64,000 nucleotides of DNA from Marinobacter sp. LA51. GTDB lineage: Bacteria > Pseudomonadota > Gammaproteobacteria > Pseudomonadales > Oleiphilaceae. The DNA lies in contig NZ_AP028070.1 of assembly GCF_030297175.1 (NCBI RefSeq), positions 1,922,001 through 1,986,000 of the forward strand, in the 5' to 3' direction. How positions within the stretch are numbered: position 1 is the first letter of the stretch; the number at the start of each line of letters is the position of its first letter. A model generated the notes under the pieces. It was not told where the DNA came from. It worked only from the letters and a program-made list of their open reading frames with translations, and did no database searches. Below are positions 56,446 through 64,000 of the stretch, piece by piece. The translations under genes and the position numbers were made by a program.

Positions 56446-57972
56446 TTAATCTTCGTCATTGTGCAGGTCGATGATGCCATTATCACCAGAATCTCCGCCC
56501 TGTTGCTTGGAGCGGCTGTCATCGTTGCGCGCATCTTCCAGGCGGTCCAGGTAGGCTTTGTCGACATCGCCGGTCACGTACTGCCCAGTGAAGACAGAAC
56601 ACTCCCAGCCCTCAATGTCCTCGTTGACGTCATTGACGCAGGTGATGAGGTCGTCCAGATCCTGGTATAGCAGCCAGTCTGCGCCAATCAGGTCCCGAAT
56701 CTCTTCAACTGTGCGGTCATGGGCGATCAGCTCGCTGGCCGACGGCATGTCAATCCCGTAGACATTTGGGTAACGCACAGGGGGCGCGGCCGAGGCAAAA
56801 TACACGTTGCGCGCGCCAGCATCCCGGGCCATCTGAACAATTTCCTTGCAGGTTGTGCCGCGAACAATGGAGTCGTCAACCAGCATGACGTTCTTGCCCC
56901 GGAACTCAAGATCAATCGGGTTCAGCTTCTGGCGTACCGATTTTTTCCGCATCTTCTGACCGGGCATGATAAAGGTACGGCCAATGTAGCGGTTCTTGAT
57001 AAAGCCTTCTCGGAACTTCACTCCCAACCGGTGCGCCAACTGCATCGCAGAGGTACGGCTGGTATCGGGTATAGGCATCACCACGTCAATATCGTGATCG
57101 GGCCGCTCACGCAGCACTTTGTCTGCAAGGGTTTCGCCCATTCGAAGACGCGCCTTGTAAACCGATACCTTATCGATAATGGAGTCCGGTCGAGCGAAAT
57201 ACACGTGTTCAAAGATGCACGGGAACAGATGCGGGTCCTCTGCACACTGCTGGGTGTAAAGGGTGCCATCAGTTTCAATATACACGGCTTCACCCGGTGC
57301 GATATCCCTTACCAGGGTAAAGCCCGCTGCATTCATGGCCACGCTTTCCGATGCGATCATGTATTCCTTGTTCCCGTTGTCGTCCTCGCGAACGCCGTAG
57401 CAGGCCGGGCGAATTCCATTCGGGTCCCGGAAACCGACAATGCCATAGCCGGTGATCATCGCAATGACGCCATAGGCACCACGACATCTTTTATGCACGG
57501 CTCGCACAGCGGCAAAGATGTCGTCTTTGGTCGGATTCAGCTTGCCTAGCTTCTGCAACTCATGAGCAAAAACGTTCAGCAGAACTTCGGAATCAGAATT
57601 GGTATTGATGTGCCGAAGATCGGTCCGAAACAAATCCTCGCTCAGATCGTCGGCGTTGGTGAGGTTGCCGTTGTGGGCCAGCGTGATGCCGTAAGGGCTG
57701 TTGACATAAAACGGCTGCGCCTCGGCTGAACTGGAACTGCCGGCCGTGGGGTAGCGAACGTGGCCGATGCCGACATTGCCGACCAGACGACGCATGTGGC
57801 GGGTATGGAAGACATCCCGAACCAATCCGTTGTCCTTGCGGAGGTAAAAGCGCTCATCCTGAAAGGTAACAATGCCCGCTGCGTCCTGGCCCCGGTGCTG
57901 AAGTACAGTCAGTGCATCATAGAGCGACTGATTGACGTTGGAAGTGCTGACGATGCCGACAATGCCACACAT
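56446..57972 (-). CDS. purF: Amidophosphoribosyltransferase
   Basis: 508 residues (E. coli 505). The N-terminal Cys2 (MCGIVGIV) is the glutaminase nucleophile after methionine removal; the second domain has the PRPP motif [13 protein letters not shown]. It performs the first committed step of purine synthesis. It lies 34 bp after cvpA, the classic cvpA-purF order, and 30 bp before metZ. Confidence 0.96.
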
Positions 57973-58006
57973 GGATAAGGTGTTCTCCGAGTGTTAAAAC
58001 TGAATG

Positions 58007-58576
58007 TTAGCTAGAGGTGGATGCAGGTGCCACGCCTTGCTGAAGTTGACTGCTGTCTGATTCCCGGTAGCTGTCCGAAGCCGGCCCGAGGAAACGGGCG
58101 AATTCATCGCCCAGTGTGCGCCGTGACCAGTCCTCGACCACCGCAAGCTTGTTGATCATGATCGACTCACGCCACCAGGTATCCTGTGCCAGCGGTGTGT
58201 AGCGGGTAAAGGCAATGGCGACGATGACAACCACGAGCCCGCGCAAGAGTCCGAAACCCATTCCCAGGACGCGATCCGTCGGGGACAGTCCGGTAGCCCG
58301 AACAAGATGGCCAATCATGTTATTGATGATGGCGCCCACAATGAGCGTGCCGAAAAAGAGAATCGCAAAGGCGGCAATCAAGCGCACCAACGGCGTTTCA
58401 ACCGTGCTCTCCAGAAGGGTTTGCATTTGCGGGTGGAAGGTTCTGGCGAGTATAAACGCGCCTACCCACGTCACCAGAGACAAGGCCTCTCTCACGAAAC
58501 CCCGCTTCAGACTGATGAGCGTAGACACTGTAATCAGGGCAATGATGACCCAGTCAATCCAGATCAGCGCTTCCAT
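58007..58576 (-). CDS. cvpA: CvpA family inner-membrane protein
   Basis: 189 residues from the ATG at 58576 (MEALIWIDWVII); a TTG ten codons earlier is possible but less likely. Four transmembrane helices (about 5-25, 30-50, 65-90 and 100-125) are followed by a cytoplasmic or periplasmic tail of 60 residues. CvpA is needed for colicin V export and for bile-salt and envelope-stress resistance in enterobacteria; the molecular role is unclear. An 8-bp inverted repeat surrounds the start codon. It is co-transcribed with purF. Confidence 0.9.
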   Translation of the reverse strand: MEALIWIDWVIIALITVSTLISLKRGFVREALSLVTWVGAFILARTFHPQMQTLLESTVETPLVRLIAAFAILFFGTLIVGAIINNMIGHLVRATGLSPTDRVLGMGFGLLRGLVVVIVAIAFTRYTPLAQDTWWRESIMINKLAVVEDWSRRTLGDEFARFLGPASDSYRESDSSQLQQGVAPASTSS

Positions 58577-58604
58577 GTAAAACCCGGTGGAAAAAAGGAA
58601 GCGC
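58567..58604 (-). promoter_or_regulatory. Inverted repeat that could hide the cvpA start codon
   Basis: GCGCTTCC (58567-58574 on the plus strand) and GGAAGCGC (58597-58604) are perfect 8-bp complements. In the mRNA the hairpin would enclose the region before the ATG and pair directly across its last base and the next codons. It could limit cvpA initiation. Confidence 0.35.
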
Positions 58605-58668
58605 AAATTCTATCAGGAATCGGCCCGCCACCAAACTGCCTGAGCCTTGGAAACTCAAGAAAAGAGGC

Positions 58669-59370
58669 TCATTTATCTCCGGTGGTCACCAGGCTGTTGA
58701 GACTGAAGGATTCGTCCAGGTCGCGCTTTGCAGCTTCGGCATCGGATTTACTGCTAAACGGACCGCTGAACACACGGGTCAGCGTAGTGTCGCCCCGCTC
58801 AACTTTCTGAAGATGAGAACCATAGCCTTTGTCACGCACCTGGTCCCGCAAGCGGCGAGCATTATCGGCATTGCCAAAACTACCTAACTGCACCACATAA
58901 GCACCGTCCAGTGACCGGGTAAATTCCGCGGACTCTGATTCTTTGCTTTGGCTGCCAGTGCTGTGCTCCGCCGCGGGTTCGGGCTCGGTAGCGACCTGCT
59001 CTGCGGGTTCATCGCGCGGGGCCGGGGCATTACTCATCGCAGCCTCGGATTCCTGAGCAACTTCTGACTCCGGCGCGCCTGAGAAAGGTTCAGCCTCCTC
59101 TTCCACCAGTCGGTAGTCTGGTGCCTCTCCTGAGTCATCCGATACCACCGATGGCTGTTCGGCGTTGTCAGGACGGGGCTCAGAATACGCCGGTGGCTCT
59201 TCGCGGTCAGATTCAGGAGCCGTCACTTCAGGAAACGGAGGCTCCTCCGGAATCTTAATGGTTGTCGAAGTTCGCTCGGAATGCGGCTCATCAAACAGCA
59301 TCGGAACAAAGATAACCGCCAGGGATACAAGTACCAGCGCCCCGATTATCCTTTGTTTCAGTCCATCCAC
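58669..59370 (-). CDS. SPOR-domain cell-division protein (DedD-like)
   Basis: 233 residues from the GTG at 59370 (VDGLKQRIIGAL), chosen because GGGAG lies about 9 bp upstream and relatives begin with a short peptide before GLKQR. An ATG at 59406 is the alternative. There is one transmembrane helix (about 8-25, IIGALVLVSLAVIFVPMLF), then a long Glu/Pro/Ser-rich linker, then a C-terminal SPOR domain (about 155-230: AYVVQLGSFGNADNARRL, VERGDTTLTRVFSGPF). SPOR domains bind denuded peptidoglycan at the septum. It lies between folC and cvpA as dedD does in E. coli. Confidence 0.88.
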   Translation of the reverse strand: MDGLKQRIIGALVLVSLAVIFVPMLFDEPHSERTSTTIKIPEEPPFPEVTAPESDREEPPAYSEPRPDNAEQPSVVSDDSGEAPDYRLVEEEAEPFSGAPESEVAQESEAAMSNAPAPRDEPAEQVATEPEPAAEHSTGSQSKESESAEFTRSLDGAYVVQLGSFGNADNARRLRDQVRDKGYGSHLQKVERGDTTLTRVFSGPFSSKSDAEAAKRDLDESFSLNSLVTTGDK

Positions 59371-59477
59371 GATTCCAGGCTCCCGTTGGTTAGCGACGTA
59401 CCACATTGGCGATAGCAGCAGATACTAACCGCCATCCTGACAGAACTCAAAGCAGCAGCGCCGGCCATGGAGAAAGT

Positions 59478-61484
59478 TTAAGACGCATCCGGCACACCCT
59501 GCCCTGCGAATTTGGCCAGAATATGGGCGATACGCTCGCGCATTTGGTGCCGATCAAGAACCATATCCACCGCACCTTTCTCGAGCAGGAACTGACTGCC
59601 CTGAAATCCTTCCGGCAATGTCTCCAACTCAACCTGTTCAATTAGTTCGGACCGGGCGTAGCCAGCCCGAGCATCTGGCTCGGCAATATTCAGGTCACCC
59701 AGCATCGCCAGACTGGCCGATACTTCGCCTGAAACCTGCTCGGTCATTACCGAGATGTACGGAAGACCTTCTTGCCTCATCCGCTCAAGAACCGCCGCCG
59801 CTTTCGCCATTTGCAATAACGCGCTAAGCCCCTCCTGAATCCGGGCGCCACCACTGGAAGAAAAACAGACCAGGGGGATTCTCCGCTCGATGGCTGCGGT
59901 TGCCGCTTGTACGAATTTGTCGCCAACCACCTCACCCATAGTGCCAGACAGGAAACTGGCCTCGAACGCGCAGGCAACAAGGGGCACGCCCAATGTGGTT
60001 CCCGTCATTACCAATAAGGCATCGTATTCCCCGGACGTCTGGTGCGCCGCATCGAGCTCATCCTGGTATCGGGCGGCACTCTCGAAGTTCAGCCGATCGG
60101 TCGACACCAGAGCGGGCGAAAGCTCCTCACGTCCCTCCTTATCAAGAAAGGAATCCAGCCGTTCTCGCGCGCTAATCCTTGCCAGCCGCCGACGGGCCTC
60201 CGCCACCGTAAAAAAGGACCCGAACACGATGATCAGGTCCTGTGGGCGTGCAATGGCCCGGGCCGCTGAAATCGCCTGCGAGACGGTTTCAGAACACTCA
60301 CAATGAGTAAGCGCCGCGCTCTGAGCCCTCTCGCTAAGAACCTGGGCCGACAATCCTCGGGGCACGGAGAGTCCAGCCAGCCACCAATGATCCACGATGG
60401 GCTTCATGGCTTCCAGCACACCATTAACGTCTTTGTCGCCGAGAGCCGCGTAGACCGCAAAAACGCGGCGGCCGGGACTCTTCTCAGCTCCCACGCGACC
60501 CGCCAACCAGCGGGCAGCATGGGGATTGTGCCCAACATCAACAAAGACATCGGGCTGCACTGACATCCGCTCAAAACGACCCGGCACCCGGAGTTGCTGG
60601 AGCGCACGTTCCATGAGAACGGTATCCAGACCGGGCTCAAGGGTGTGCATCGCTACAACCGCCGCGGCAACGCTGGAGACCGGTAAAGGCCCGGAAGGCA
60701 GCGTAACGTCCCGTCCCCGATGAGTCAGCACCAGTCGAGCTGGCCTGTCATCCTGATCGGACTCTACCGGTTGCACCTGATAGTCCCGCCCTGCAAGCGC
60801 CAGATCCACCTTCTGCGCGGCCGCCTGTTGAAGCACCGAGCGTGGCGGCTCATCGTCGGCGCATACGGCGGGTATCCGGGGGCGCAGAACGCCAGCCTTT
60901 TCAAACCCGATGACTTCGCGGTTGTCACCGAGAAACGCCACATGGTCAATGTCCACGGAGGTAATAATGGCCAGGTCCGGATCCATGACATTGACGGCAT
61001 CCAATCGACCGCCTAAGCCTACCTCGAGTAGCCAGTCGTCTACCCCCGCCTCCGCGAGCGCCACAAAAGCCGCCAGGGTTCCAAACTCAAAGTAAGTCAG
61101 GGAGACGCCCCGGCGGGCCGCTTCCACACGCTCAAAGACGGAGACCAGCGAAGCATCGTCGATATTTCGACCGTTCAGGCGAATTCGCTCGTTGTAGACT
61201 TCAAGGTGTGGCGAAGTATAGGCCCCGGTCGTTCGGCCCGCGGCCTGCAGCAACGCCTCCAGAGAGGCGACTGCGCTGCCTTTGCCATTGGTACCGGCGA
61301 CGGTAATGATTCGGCCAGAGGGTTTACGGGGAAACAGTCGTCGCAAAACGACAAGCACTCGATCCAGGCCAAGATCAATTTCGGTGGGATGGAGTGCTTC
61401 GAGATAGGACAGCCACTGATCGACAGTGGCGCCAGCCCCCGGAGCAACCGGGGACTGGACGTTATTATTGCTCGGCGGGGGCAT
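59478..61484 (-). CDS. folC: FolC (dihydrofolate/folylpolyglutamate synthase) fused to a second, degenerate AccD carboxyltransferase domain
   Basis: 668 residues; ordinary FolC proteins have about 420-430. Residues 1-436 are a complete FolC: the ATP loop [10 protein letters not shown] (62-71), YTSPHL (89-94), the ring of Mur-ligase residues in DVGHNPHA (316-323) and the C-terminal end [14 protein letters not shown]. From residue 438 to the stop (plus-strand 59478-60173) the protein aligns without gaps to residues 60-285 of the neighbouring AccD, about two-thirds identical by eye. The AccD zinc ribbon is missing, and active-site motifs are changed: [11 protein letters not shown] became [11 protein letters not shown], and [11 protein letters not shown] became [11 protein letters not shown]. 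The FolC half should be active; the AccD half is probably not catalytic. The start overlaps accD by 20 bp. Confidence 0.93.
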
Positions 61485-62394
61485 CAGCTTCCGGTTTTTC
61501 CGTTACTTCGAACTCGATGGGCGCCTCAGTTCCAGGGCGCTCATGACCGGTGAACTTGGCCAGCACATGGGCAATGCGTTCGCGCATTTGATGGCGGTGC
61601 AAGATCATGTCGATGGCACCGTGCTCAAGCAGGAACTCGCTGCGTTGGAAGCCTTCCGGCAATTTCTCACGCACGGTCTGCTCAATCACTCGCGGACCCG
61701 CGAAACCAATCAGGGCATTCGGCTCTGCAATATTGAGATCCCCCAGCATCGCCAAACTCGCGGAAACGCCGCCAAAAACAGGGTCAGTCATCACAGAGAT
61801 GTAAGGAATGCCCTCCTGCTTCATGCGCTCAAGCACCGCGGCCGTTTTGGACATCTGCATTAAAGACAGTATCGCTTCCTGCATCCGGGCGCCGCCACTG
61901 GCGGAGAAGCAGACCAAAGGAATCCGTTCGGCCAGTGCGACATTGGCAGCCTGAACGAATTTCTCGCCCACAACCTGCCCCATTGAGCCACCCAGGAAGT
62001 TGAACTCGAAAGCGCAGGCTACCAAGGGGACCCCGAGCGTGGTGCCCTTCATGGCGACCAGGGCATCCTTCTCGCCAGTTGTTTTCTGGGCGTGTGACAG
62101 CCGGTCTTTGTAGCGTTTGCTGTCTTTGAACTTCAGGCGATCCCATGGCTCCAGATCGGCTGCAATTTCATGCCGATCTTCAGGATCCAGGAAAACATCA
62201 AGTCGACGGCGGGCGTGGACCCGAAGATGATGATTACACTTGGGGCAGACGTCGAGATTCTTCTCAAGCTCTGGCTTGTACAAAAATGCACCGCACTTGG
62301 GGCACTTCTTCCATAGGCCTTCCGGCACACCGGTTCGTTGCTTGGATTCCGAGCGAATCTTGCTCGGCATAATCTTGTCCAGCCAGTTACTCAT
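61465..62394 (-). CDS. accD: Acetyl-CoA carboxylase carboxyltransferase subunit beta
   Basis: 309 residues (E. coli 304). The N-terminal zinc ribbon is intact (Cys31, 34, 50 and 53: CPKC and CPKC). The crotonase-like core carries [39 protein letters not shown] and [12 protein letters not shown], all as in active enzymes. It pairs with AccA to move carboxyl from biotin to acetyl-CoA, making malonyl-CoA for the FabI pathway. The C-terminal 25 residues are acidic and variable. It lies 44 bp after trpA and its last 20 bp are shared with the start of the folC fusion. Confidence 0.97.
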
Positions 62395-62438
62395 GATTTC
62401 ATCCTGTCCTTTGATGCCAGTTGGCCTGTCCCTGTCAC

Positions 62439-63251
62439 TCAGGAGCTCAGGCCATCCAAAGCCTCACGCATCGGGTGGAGCAGATCCGTCAGCGCTCGCT
62501 TAAGCTGGTCGGTATCTGCCTGGTTTCTAGCTATTGTATCTACCAGGACGCTACCAACAATTACACCATCGGATACCCGCCCCACCGCAGCAGCTGTGTG
62601 AGCATCCCGAATACCAAAACCTACCGCTACCGGAAGCGCCGTAAGTTTATGGATATGATCCACGCGACTAGCGACTTCGTCGACGTTGATTTTCGCGGCC
62701 CCAGTTACACCATTGAATGAAACATAGTACACATAGCCGGATGAGTGCTCGCTGATCGCACGAATACGGTCGTCGGTGGTGGTTGGCGACAGCAGGAAAA
62801 TGGCATCCAGGTTGCGCTCAGTAAACAGCGGTGCCACGTCGTCCGCTTCCTCGGGCGGTAGATCCACCGTCAGGACTCCGTCGACACCAGCATCAACCGC
62901 AGCGTCGGCAAAGGCTTCATAACCCATCGCTTCCATCGGGTTGAGATAGCCCATCAGAACGATCGGCGTTTCGCTGTCTCTGGTACGGAATTCCTTGACC
63001 ATGGCAATGACCTGGCGCAGCGACGTCCCATGTTTCAGGGCACGCTCACAGGCCAGCTGGATAACCGGACCGTCGGCCATGGGATCGGAAAACGGCACGC
63101 CCAACTCGATGATGTCGGCACCTGCAGCCACCAGGGTGTGCATCAGCCCTACCGTTGCATCGGGATGCGGGTCACCGGCGGTGATGTAGGGAATAAGTGC
63201 CTTGCGACCTTGTCCTTTCAGGGCCTCGAGGGTCCTTTCAATTCGGCTCAT
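62439..63251 (-). CDS. trpA: Tryptophan synthase alpha chain
   Basis: 270 residues from the ATG at 63251 with AGGAG 6 bp upstream ([11 protein letters not shown]); E. coli has 268. The catalytic glutamate is in [20 protein letters not shown] and the aspartate in [19 protein letters not shown] and VGFGIRD are also conserved. It cleaves indole-3-glycerol phosphate and channels indole to TrpB, whose gene ends 19 bp upstream of this start. Confidence 0.97.
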
Positions 63252-63270
63252 GCCTGCTCCTGTAACTTCT

Positions 63271-64000
63271 TCAGATCTCGATGCCTTCAAGCTTGGCAAC
63301 CGTGTTGATGTCTTTATCGCCCCGACCGGACACGTTGATCACGACGGTTTGATCTTTGTCCATAGTAGCCGCAAGTTTGATGGCATAGGCCACCGCATGG
63401 GCTGTTTCCAGTGCCGGCATGATCCCTTCTACACGGGTCAGTTTACGGAACCCTTCCATAGCCTCATCGTCGGTGACGGACACATAATTGGCACGACCGA
63501 TGTCTTTCAACCAGCTGTGCTCAGGTCCCACACCCGGGTAGTCAAGACCGGCACTAACGGAATGGGTGCCAGCGATCTGGCCATTCTCATCTTCCATCAA
63601 GTAAGTGCGGTTGCCATGAAGGACACCGGGGCGGCCCGCGCACAGGGGAGCAGCGTGCTTGCCGGTTTCAATGCCCAGACCACCGGCCTCAACACCGTAC
63701 AACTGAACAGATTCGTCAGACAGGAATGGGTAGAACATACCGATAGCGTTCGAACCACCACCTACACACGCCACCAGGGCGTCCGGAAGTTTACCGGTTT
63801 TCTCCAGCGCCTGGCGGCGAGTTTCACGGCCAATGACCGACTGGAAATCACGAACCAGCATCGGATACGGGTGCGGACCGGCGACCGTGCCAATGATGTA
63901 GAAGGTTTCGTCTACGTAGGATACCCAGTCGCGCATGGCCTCGTTCATCGCATCTTTCAACGTGCGAGTGCCACTTTCAACCGCGTGCACTTCGGCGCCC
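63271..64000 (-). CDS. trpB: Tryptophan synthase beta chain (partial, N-terminus outside window)
   Basis: The C-terminal 242 residues are visible; the frame runs off the right edge. The PLP-phosphate loop [36 protein letters not shown], and the C-terminal [12 protein letters not shown] are standard TrpB features. It condenses indole with serine. The gene pair trpBA followed by accD and folC is a known arrangement in gammaproteobacteria. Confidence 0.97.

Follow-up and report, generated by a model that had tools for sequence, protein, structure and literature searches.

The carboxyltransferase of acetyl-CoA carboxylase is described as an alpha2beta2 complex which dissociates via an alpha-beta unit (PMC4009401), with an active site at the alpha-beta interface and a beta subunit that binds acetyl-CoA (PMC11077971). 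The zinc finger of AccD has been reviewed as being required for catalysis and as binding the accA and accD mRNAs (PMC3896788). For the related malonate decarboxylase, the main-chain amide of MdcD Gly162 is reported to lie in the oxyanion hole and CoA to be bound mainly by MdcD (PMC5534430). A duplicated accD has also been described before; this is AdmT, which gives self-resistance to andrimid producers (PMC13151354). The adjacency of trpA, accD and folC is likewise already known (PMC2395257).

In this work we analyzed a FolC-AccD fusion gene encoded in a 64,000 nucleotide stretch of Marinobacter sp. LA51 DNA (the window, to which all positions refer). The original prediction held that no such fusion was known, and our searches of open-access literature likewise turned up no description of one, nor of a FolC carrying an extra, degenerate AccD. 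The fusion is a new architecture made from known parts.

Results

The fusion gene occupies 59478..61484 on the minus strand, exactly as originally placed, and the proposed in-frame joining of FolC to AccD was borne out, since both domains lie in one open frame and the arrangement recurs in other genomes. The frame runs for 2007 nt from ATG to TAA, its sole stop codon being the terminal one, and encodes a protein of 668 aa which contains the Pfam domains Mur_ligase_M, Mur_ligase_C and Carboxyl_trans; the NCBIfam profiles match FolC at residues 14-432 and AccD at residues 435-660. FolC was correctly called complete and an AccD-like part does follow it, the boundary lying near residue 435/436 instead of 437/438. 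We therefore assign residues 1-435 to the FolC part (60180..61484, minus strand) and residues 436-668 plus the stop codon to the AccD-like domain, here termed AccD' (59478..60179, minus strand; PF01039 match), which corresponds to AccD from residue 58 onwards. Comparison of AccD' with the neighbouring AccD gave 65.65% identity over 230 residues (AccD 58-287) without gaps and with equal lengths on both sides, close to the roughly two-thirds identity over about 225 ungapped residues estimated earlier, and the shared C-terminal (V/I)LAKF ending is present in both.

The intact accD lies at 61465..62394 on the minus strand and represents the parent-type copy. It encodes 309 aa with the GG motif and with a zinc ribbon at residues 28-53 (62236..62313, minus strand; PF17848), which is missing in the fusion, and with 420.5 bits it exceeds the TIGR00515 cut-off of 317.45. 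By frame coordinates the end of accD overlaps the start of the fusion by 20 nt (61465..61484, minus strand), and the sequence GGAAG stands 4-8 nt before the fusion ATG; because of these two features the translation of accD and of the fusion is probably coupled. The overlap is not peculiar to the fusion, as the plain FolC of the two close relatives G054 and G098 begins in the same way. A conserved stretch, cTTAAA(C/G)TTTGTCCAT(A/G)GC, is located between folC and the next gene (59464-59482, minus strand), and a loose pattern of it is present in 41 of 47 loci (L001-L047); in the genome of the window (G000) and in G043 (reading TTTCTCC) the TAA of its cTTAAA part is the fusion stop codon.

The neighbouring frames within 57000-64000 are of housekeeping type, and we take them to include trpA, accD, a SPOR-type gene and cvpA-like and purF-like genes. 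No biosynthesis cluster for an inhibitor was found within the same 57000-64000 interval. These surroundings bear on the idea that AccD' is an antibiotic decoy or resistance copy: AccD' shares with AdmT its nature as a duplicated accD, but AdmT, an AccD analogue, is part of an antibiotic cluster and confers resistance (PMC13151354), whereas AccD' is degenerate, fused to FolC and set among ordinary genes, and a role of this kind is extremely improbable.

The spread of the fusion and the constancy of its length had been raised as points to check. A whole-query match was obtained in eight of 124 Marinobacter genomes (G000, G043, G101, G016, G142, G122, G011, and G156). No inner stop was present in these eight genomic copies, although broken copies could have escaped being counted as fusions. 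A match of some kind was given by 122 of the 124 genomes, the two others being 62% and 58% complete, and a small number of FolC loci that are broken or incomplete (e.g., G035 and G134) fall outside the presence/absence call. In a search of about 5.8 billion proteins, the best 120 of 575 and the best 120 of 182 matches included at least 10 protein clusters with the fusion architecture, of 664-681 aa. The clusters which carry NCBI names, P0005 (Marinobacter sp. F4206), P0006 (Marinobacter sp. F4218), P0121 (M. salinisoli) and P0122 (M. suaedae), are all labelled plain FolC. An assembly or sequencing error, with a stop or frameshift in reality, has a negligible chance of explaining the gene: eight genomes and ten clusters share the architecture without an inner stop in the genomic copies, and dN/dS is low, and on these grounds we excluded it.

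When the search was extended to 390 genomes from the order, which included 16 Marinobacter genomes, G000 was the only one among the matches listed to align over the entire query, and four long FolC frames from outside the genus all lack an AccD tail. Searching AccD' against plasmids returned 90 records, all below 60% identity; among the 10 listed, eight are annotated accD and two have no feature. The close relatives G054 and G098 encode a plain FolC without AccD'. Three metagenome proteins, P0068, P0103, and P0167, carry AccD and FolC in order in one frame (with an apparent frameshift inside FolC in P0103 and P0167), and a fourth, P0170, carries TrpA and AccD in one frame of 560 residues. Like the Marinobacter fusion these join products of the trpA-accD-folC neighbourhood, but they consist of single copies in genomic order with the GG motif kept, whereas in the Marinobacter fusion the order is inverted and the AccD copy is an additional one. 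Another protein, P0004, was rejected as an odd fusion candidate; it is a 433-aa AccD in which the zinc ribbon and the first part of the core are repeated, perhaps an assembly duplicate.

The FolC part passes the TIGR01499 cut-off (298 bits against 162.65), being the only FolC over the cut-off in the genome, and lies just under that of the narrower equivalog NF008101 (357.1 against 360). Its best solved relative is E. coli FolC 1w78 (E 1.3e-88), with residues 15-430 of the fusion aligning with 7-410 of the E. coli protein, to which the fusion adds a C-terminal domain of 233 residues. The motif GTNGKG, presumably the FolC P-loop, is invariant in 15 fused rows and occurs in 1w78 as well. No second FolC over the cut-off was found in the 10 genomes searched, which have one each and include all eight fused genomes. 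Because the fused FolC is thus the only one over the cut-off in each fused genome, FolC activity (DHFS and FPGS) is to be expected, and the FolC of the fusion should work if folate synthesis is needed.

The carboxyltransferase core of AccD' can be aligned with that of E. coli AccD over 230 residues without a gap, the structures 8uxz and 2f9y being its best solved relatives. Unlike E. coli AccD, however, it has no zinc ribbon, reads GE in place of GG, has lost the GFAGPR loop and fails the AccD equivalog profile TIGR00515, with 253.8 bits against a cut-off of 317.45. The ribbon is cleanly missing: AccD' begins at AccD residue 58, right after the last zinc cysteine (residue 53), the fusion gives no PF17848 match, and the four zinc-ribbon cysteine columns are gaps in all 13 fused rows. 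Alignment of these 13 rows with 41 AccD rows showed that the second Gly of the AccD motif GGVSAS is replaced by Glu587 (59724..59726, minus strand) in 13/13 fused rows, while Gly is found in at least 95% of the AccD rows. The reading GEV recurs in 10/10 fused protein clusters, and GG in all 161 motif-matching non-fused database proteins of a set of 165. We take the GG motif to be the oxyanion hole of AccD, with the caveat that Glu too has a main-chain amide. A true MdcD, sought in order to map Gly162 onto AccD, was over the cut-off in none of 58 genomes.

Further changes affect the site of the AccD loop GFAGPRV (codons 608-614; 59643..59663, minus strand), where the loop is lost and the sequence varies among the fused proteins, as does the first Gly of SGGAR. 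In the core, 108 positions are conserved in AccD; AccD' retains 49 of them, with 57 relaxed and two switched. The basic AccD residues K93, R98, R235, R242, and R251 are gone from all fused rows and R58 and K88 from most; R440, R442, R548, K561, R645, and R649 of the fusion belong to the 49 positions retained. Residues new to AccD' and found family-wide include Glu587 (13/13) and Ala555 (12/13). The missing zinc ribbon, the change of GG to GE and the loss of the GFAGPR loop and of conserved Arg and Lys residues make it likely that carboxyltransferase activity has been lost, and we predict that AccD' would fail to complement accD.

Two alternatives are affected by these changes. If the protein were a bifunctional enzyme, in which AccD' serves as a further, active beta subunit of the carboxyltransferase and brings malonyl-CoA synthesis to FolC, this would fit the identity of AccD' to AccD, the 49 core positions kept, with the six basic residues named above among them, and the purifying selection described below. 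The absent ribbon, the Glu in every fused row, the degenerate loop, the lost basic residues and the score under the equivalog cut-off all speak against such an enzyme, which we consider very unlikely. Quite unlikely, too, is a regulatory domain which senses acyl-CoA or another metabolite and exerts allosteric control over FolC. That the parent beta subunit binds acetyl-CoA (PMC11077971) and the relative MdcD binds CoA (PMC5534430) would suit a domain of this type, but the loss of conserved basic residues and of the GG and GFAGPR motifs is contrary to CoA binding.

The origin of AccD' was addressed with a tree of 23 AccD from the 47 loci of the FolC tree, 18 AccD from 80 named loci and 13 AccD', from which P0005, P0006, and P0008 were omitted as near copies of G142, G016, and G122; the AccD of G054, which is in two frames, was left out of the AccD counts. 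All 13 AccD' rows form one clade (99/94) nested in the Marinobacteraceae AccD, inside a branch (95/98) which also comprises 26 AccD from Marinobacter and one from Tamilnaduibacter and which leaves Mangrovitalea outside. The position of the clade within the Marinobacter AccDs is an open fork with long branches, and a grouping of AccD' with Marinobacter AccD to the exclusion of Tamilnaduibacter is not rejected (p 0.422). The tree supports a single duplication of accD inside the lineage, in line with the local duplication originally proposed; gain from a distant donor is not favoured, as AccD' nests with the Marinobacteraceae AccD. Judging from the similarity of the 23 Marinobacter AccDs (at least 86.7%, mean 92.1%) and the identity among the 13 AccD' copies (43-97%), evolution has been much faster in AccD' than in its parent, and the AccD' of G011 and G156 share only about 45% identity with the AccD of the same genome.

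The FolC tree was built from 47 loci drawn from the 122 matching genomes. In it the fused FolCs group with G054 and G098 (SH-aLRT 84) beside G126/G129; G000 and G054 form a pair, G098 branches outside G043, and three changes of the fusion label are required. The RpoB tree (27 of 29 genomes used; G088 had no RpoB match and G084 a partial one) joins G043, G000, G054, and G098 in one clade (99/100), with G000, G054, and G098 grouped within it (98/93). G011/G156 are separated from the remaining fused genomes in this tree, a placement that is weakly supported, and four state changes are required. One gain followed by one or two losses in the G054 and G098 lines would be the plainest history, and it is possible that the locus passed from one species to another.

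Sequence downstream of folC in G054 may hold a trace of AccD', as 16 of 24 bases are in register with the end of the G000 AccD', just before the shared cTTAAAC motif; this is weak evidence. For the same 24 bases the best of 33 unfused loci reached 11 in register and 14 with shifts of up to 4, and the local alignment score of the G054 segment was equalled in 8 of 2000 shuffles. G098 gave no clear signal (13/24 at a shift of 2; 481 of 2000 shuffles reach its score). The likeness in G054 may be a feature of the species group and not a remnant of AccD', since the fused G101, G016, and G142 are also unlike G000 at this site (8-9/24). The accD of G054 (L004:592-1520) is split into two overlapping frames of 124 and 226 aa, perhaps by a sequencing error; the assembly is a single contig with 6% contamination.

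Selection was assessed by dN/dS (Nei-Gojobori). The closest pair, G000 and G043, gave 0.134 for FolC, 0.144 for AccD' and 0 for AccD. Over the five closest within-group pairs the values range from 0.050 to 0.167 for AccD' and from 0.070 to 0.134 for FolC; the other four of these (G101-G016, G101-G142, G016-G142, and G011-G156) span 0.050-0.167 and 0.070-0.092, respectively, the AccD' value of G011-G156 (0.167) being well over that of its FolC (0.070). Remoter pairs, which are near or at saturation, reach up to 0.263 for AccD' (G016-G011), with dN above that of FolC. The AccD' sequences of G000 and G043 show 82 differences in 699 bases, of which 55 fall on third codon positions, and 24 residues are changed as a result; random placement of 82 differences (n = 1000) changed 54.5 residues on average and never fewer than 42, and 9.4% of these placements were without a stop. 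Invariant columns over 15 rows number 76/227 in AccD' and 215/435 in FolC. These comparisons make purifying selection on AccD' clear; its strength is similar to that on FolC for the closest pair and falls below it over longer time spans. The low dN/dS argues that AccD' has been retained.

An accidental, (nearly) neutral tail, on which selection acts against misfolding alone, would account for the patchy occurrence in eight of 124 genomes, for the absence of AccD' from G054 and G098, which are nested with fused species in the FolC and RpoB trees, for a constraint far under that of AccD, for the divergent copies of G011 and G156, and for the 57 relaxed core positions. We nevertheless regard such a passenger as unlikely, because for the closest pair dN/dS is as low as in FolC and the other close pairs give low values too, the eight genomic copies are free of inner stops (broken ones possibly being uncounted), and the new residues Glu587 and Ala555 are common across the family.

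Discussion

The reading we prefer, with moderate confidence, is that of a working FolC which keeps a pseudo-AccD module serving contact or control. Probably once, in a subclade of Marinobacter, FolC would have gained a C-terminal domain derived from the carboxyltransferase core of an accD duplicate. AccD' would then be a pseudoenzyme domain, without carboxyltransferase activity and with its crotonase-type fold presumably retained, which acts as a non-catalytic module, most likely by protein contacts. Its partner could be AccA/AccD of acetyl-CoA carboxylase or a second AccD' copy, and through these contacts AccD' may localise, oligomerise or tune FolC; it might perhaps also set the available amount of AccA. 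Provided that AccD' is such a module, contact with AccA/AccD on the one hand and self-contact or stabilisation of FolC on the other each have somewhat less than an even chance, another partner or ligand being a fairly unlikely third course.

The dissociation of the carboxyltransferase via an alpha-beta unit, together with the gene overlap, makes contact with AccA/AccD an appealing idea. No column of AccA separated the eight fused genomes from 10 unfused ones, nor did any column of AccD separate the eight from 14 unfused ones, and AccA and AccD thus give no sign of co-adaptation with the fusion. A second AccA over the cut-off was absent from all 20 genomes searched. A specific form of this contact, which we put forward only tentatively and hold to be doubtful, is that AccD' enters the carboxyltransferase as a pseudo-beta subunit, replacing AccD or beside it, with the result that FolC sits on the carboxylase. 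If true, the amount or state of one enzyme would limit the other, and folate and fatty-acid synthesis would be linked covalently via a dead subunit.

It had been proposed that the fusion physically joins folate metabolism to fatty-acid synthesis. As the joining of two enzymes this is unsupported, since AccD' has no zinc ribbon, has GE in place of GG and has lost the GFAGPR loop; a physical link is possible, via a domain which is probably non-catalytic.

The fusion also has a practical side, in that the four fused clusters with an NCBI name are labelled simply as FolC and the second domain is overlooked, a warning for annotation. More generally, at this locus a housekeeping enzyme has naturally captured the duplicated subunit of another pathway, with the catalytic motifs lost and selection kept. 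Since the gene and its parent-type copy are available along with species that have AccD' and species that lack it, the fate of the captured domain is directly testable. If AccD' binds AccA, folate and fatty-acid synthesis would be directly connected through a protein.
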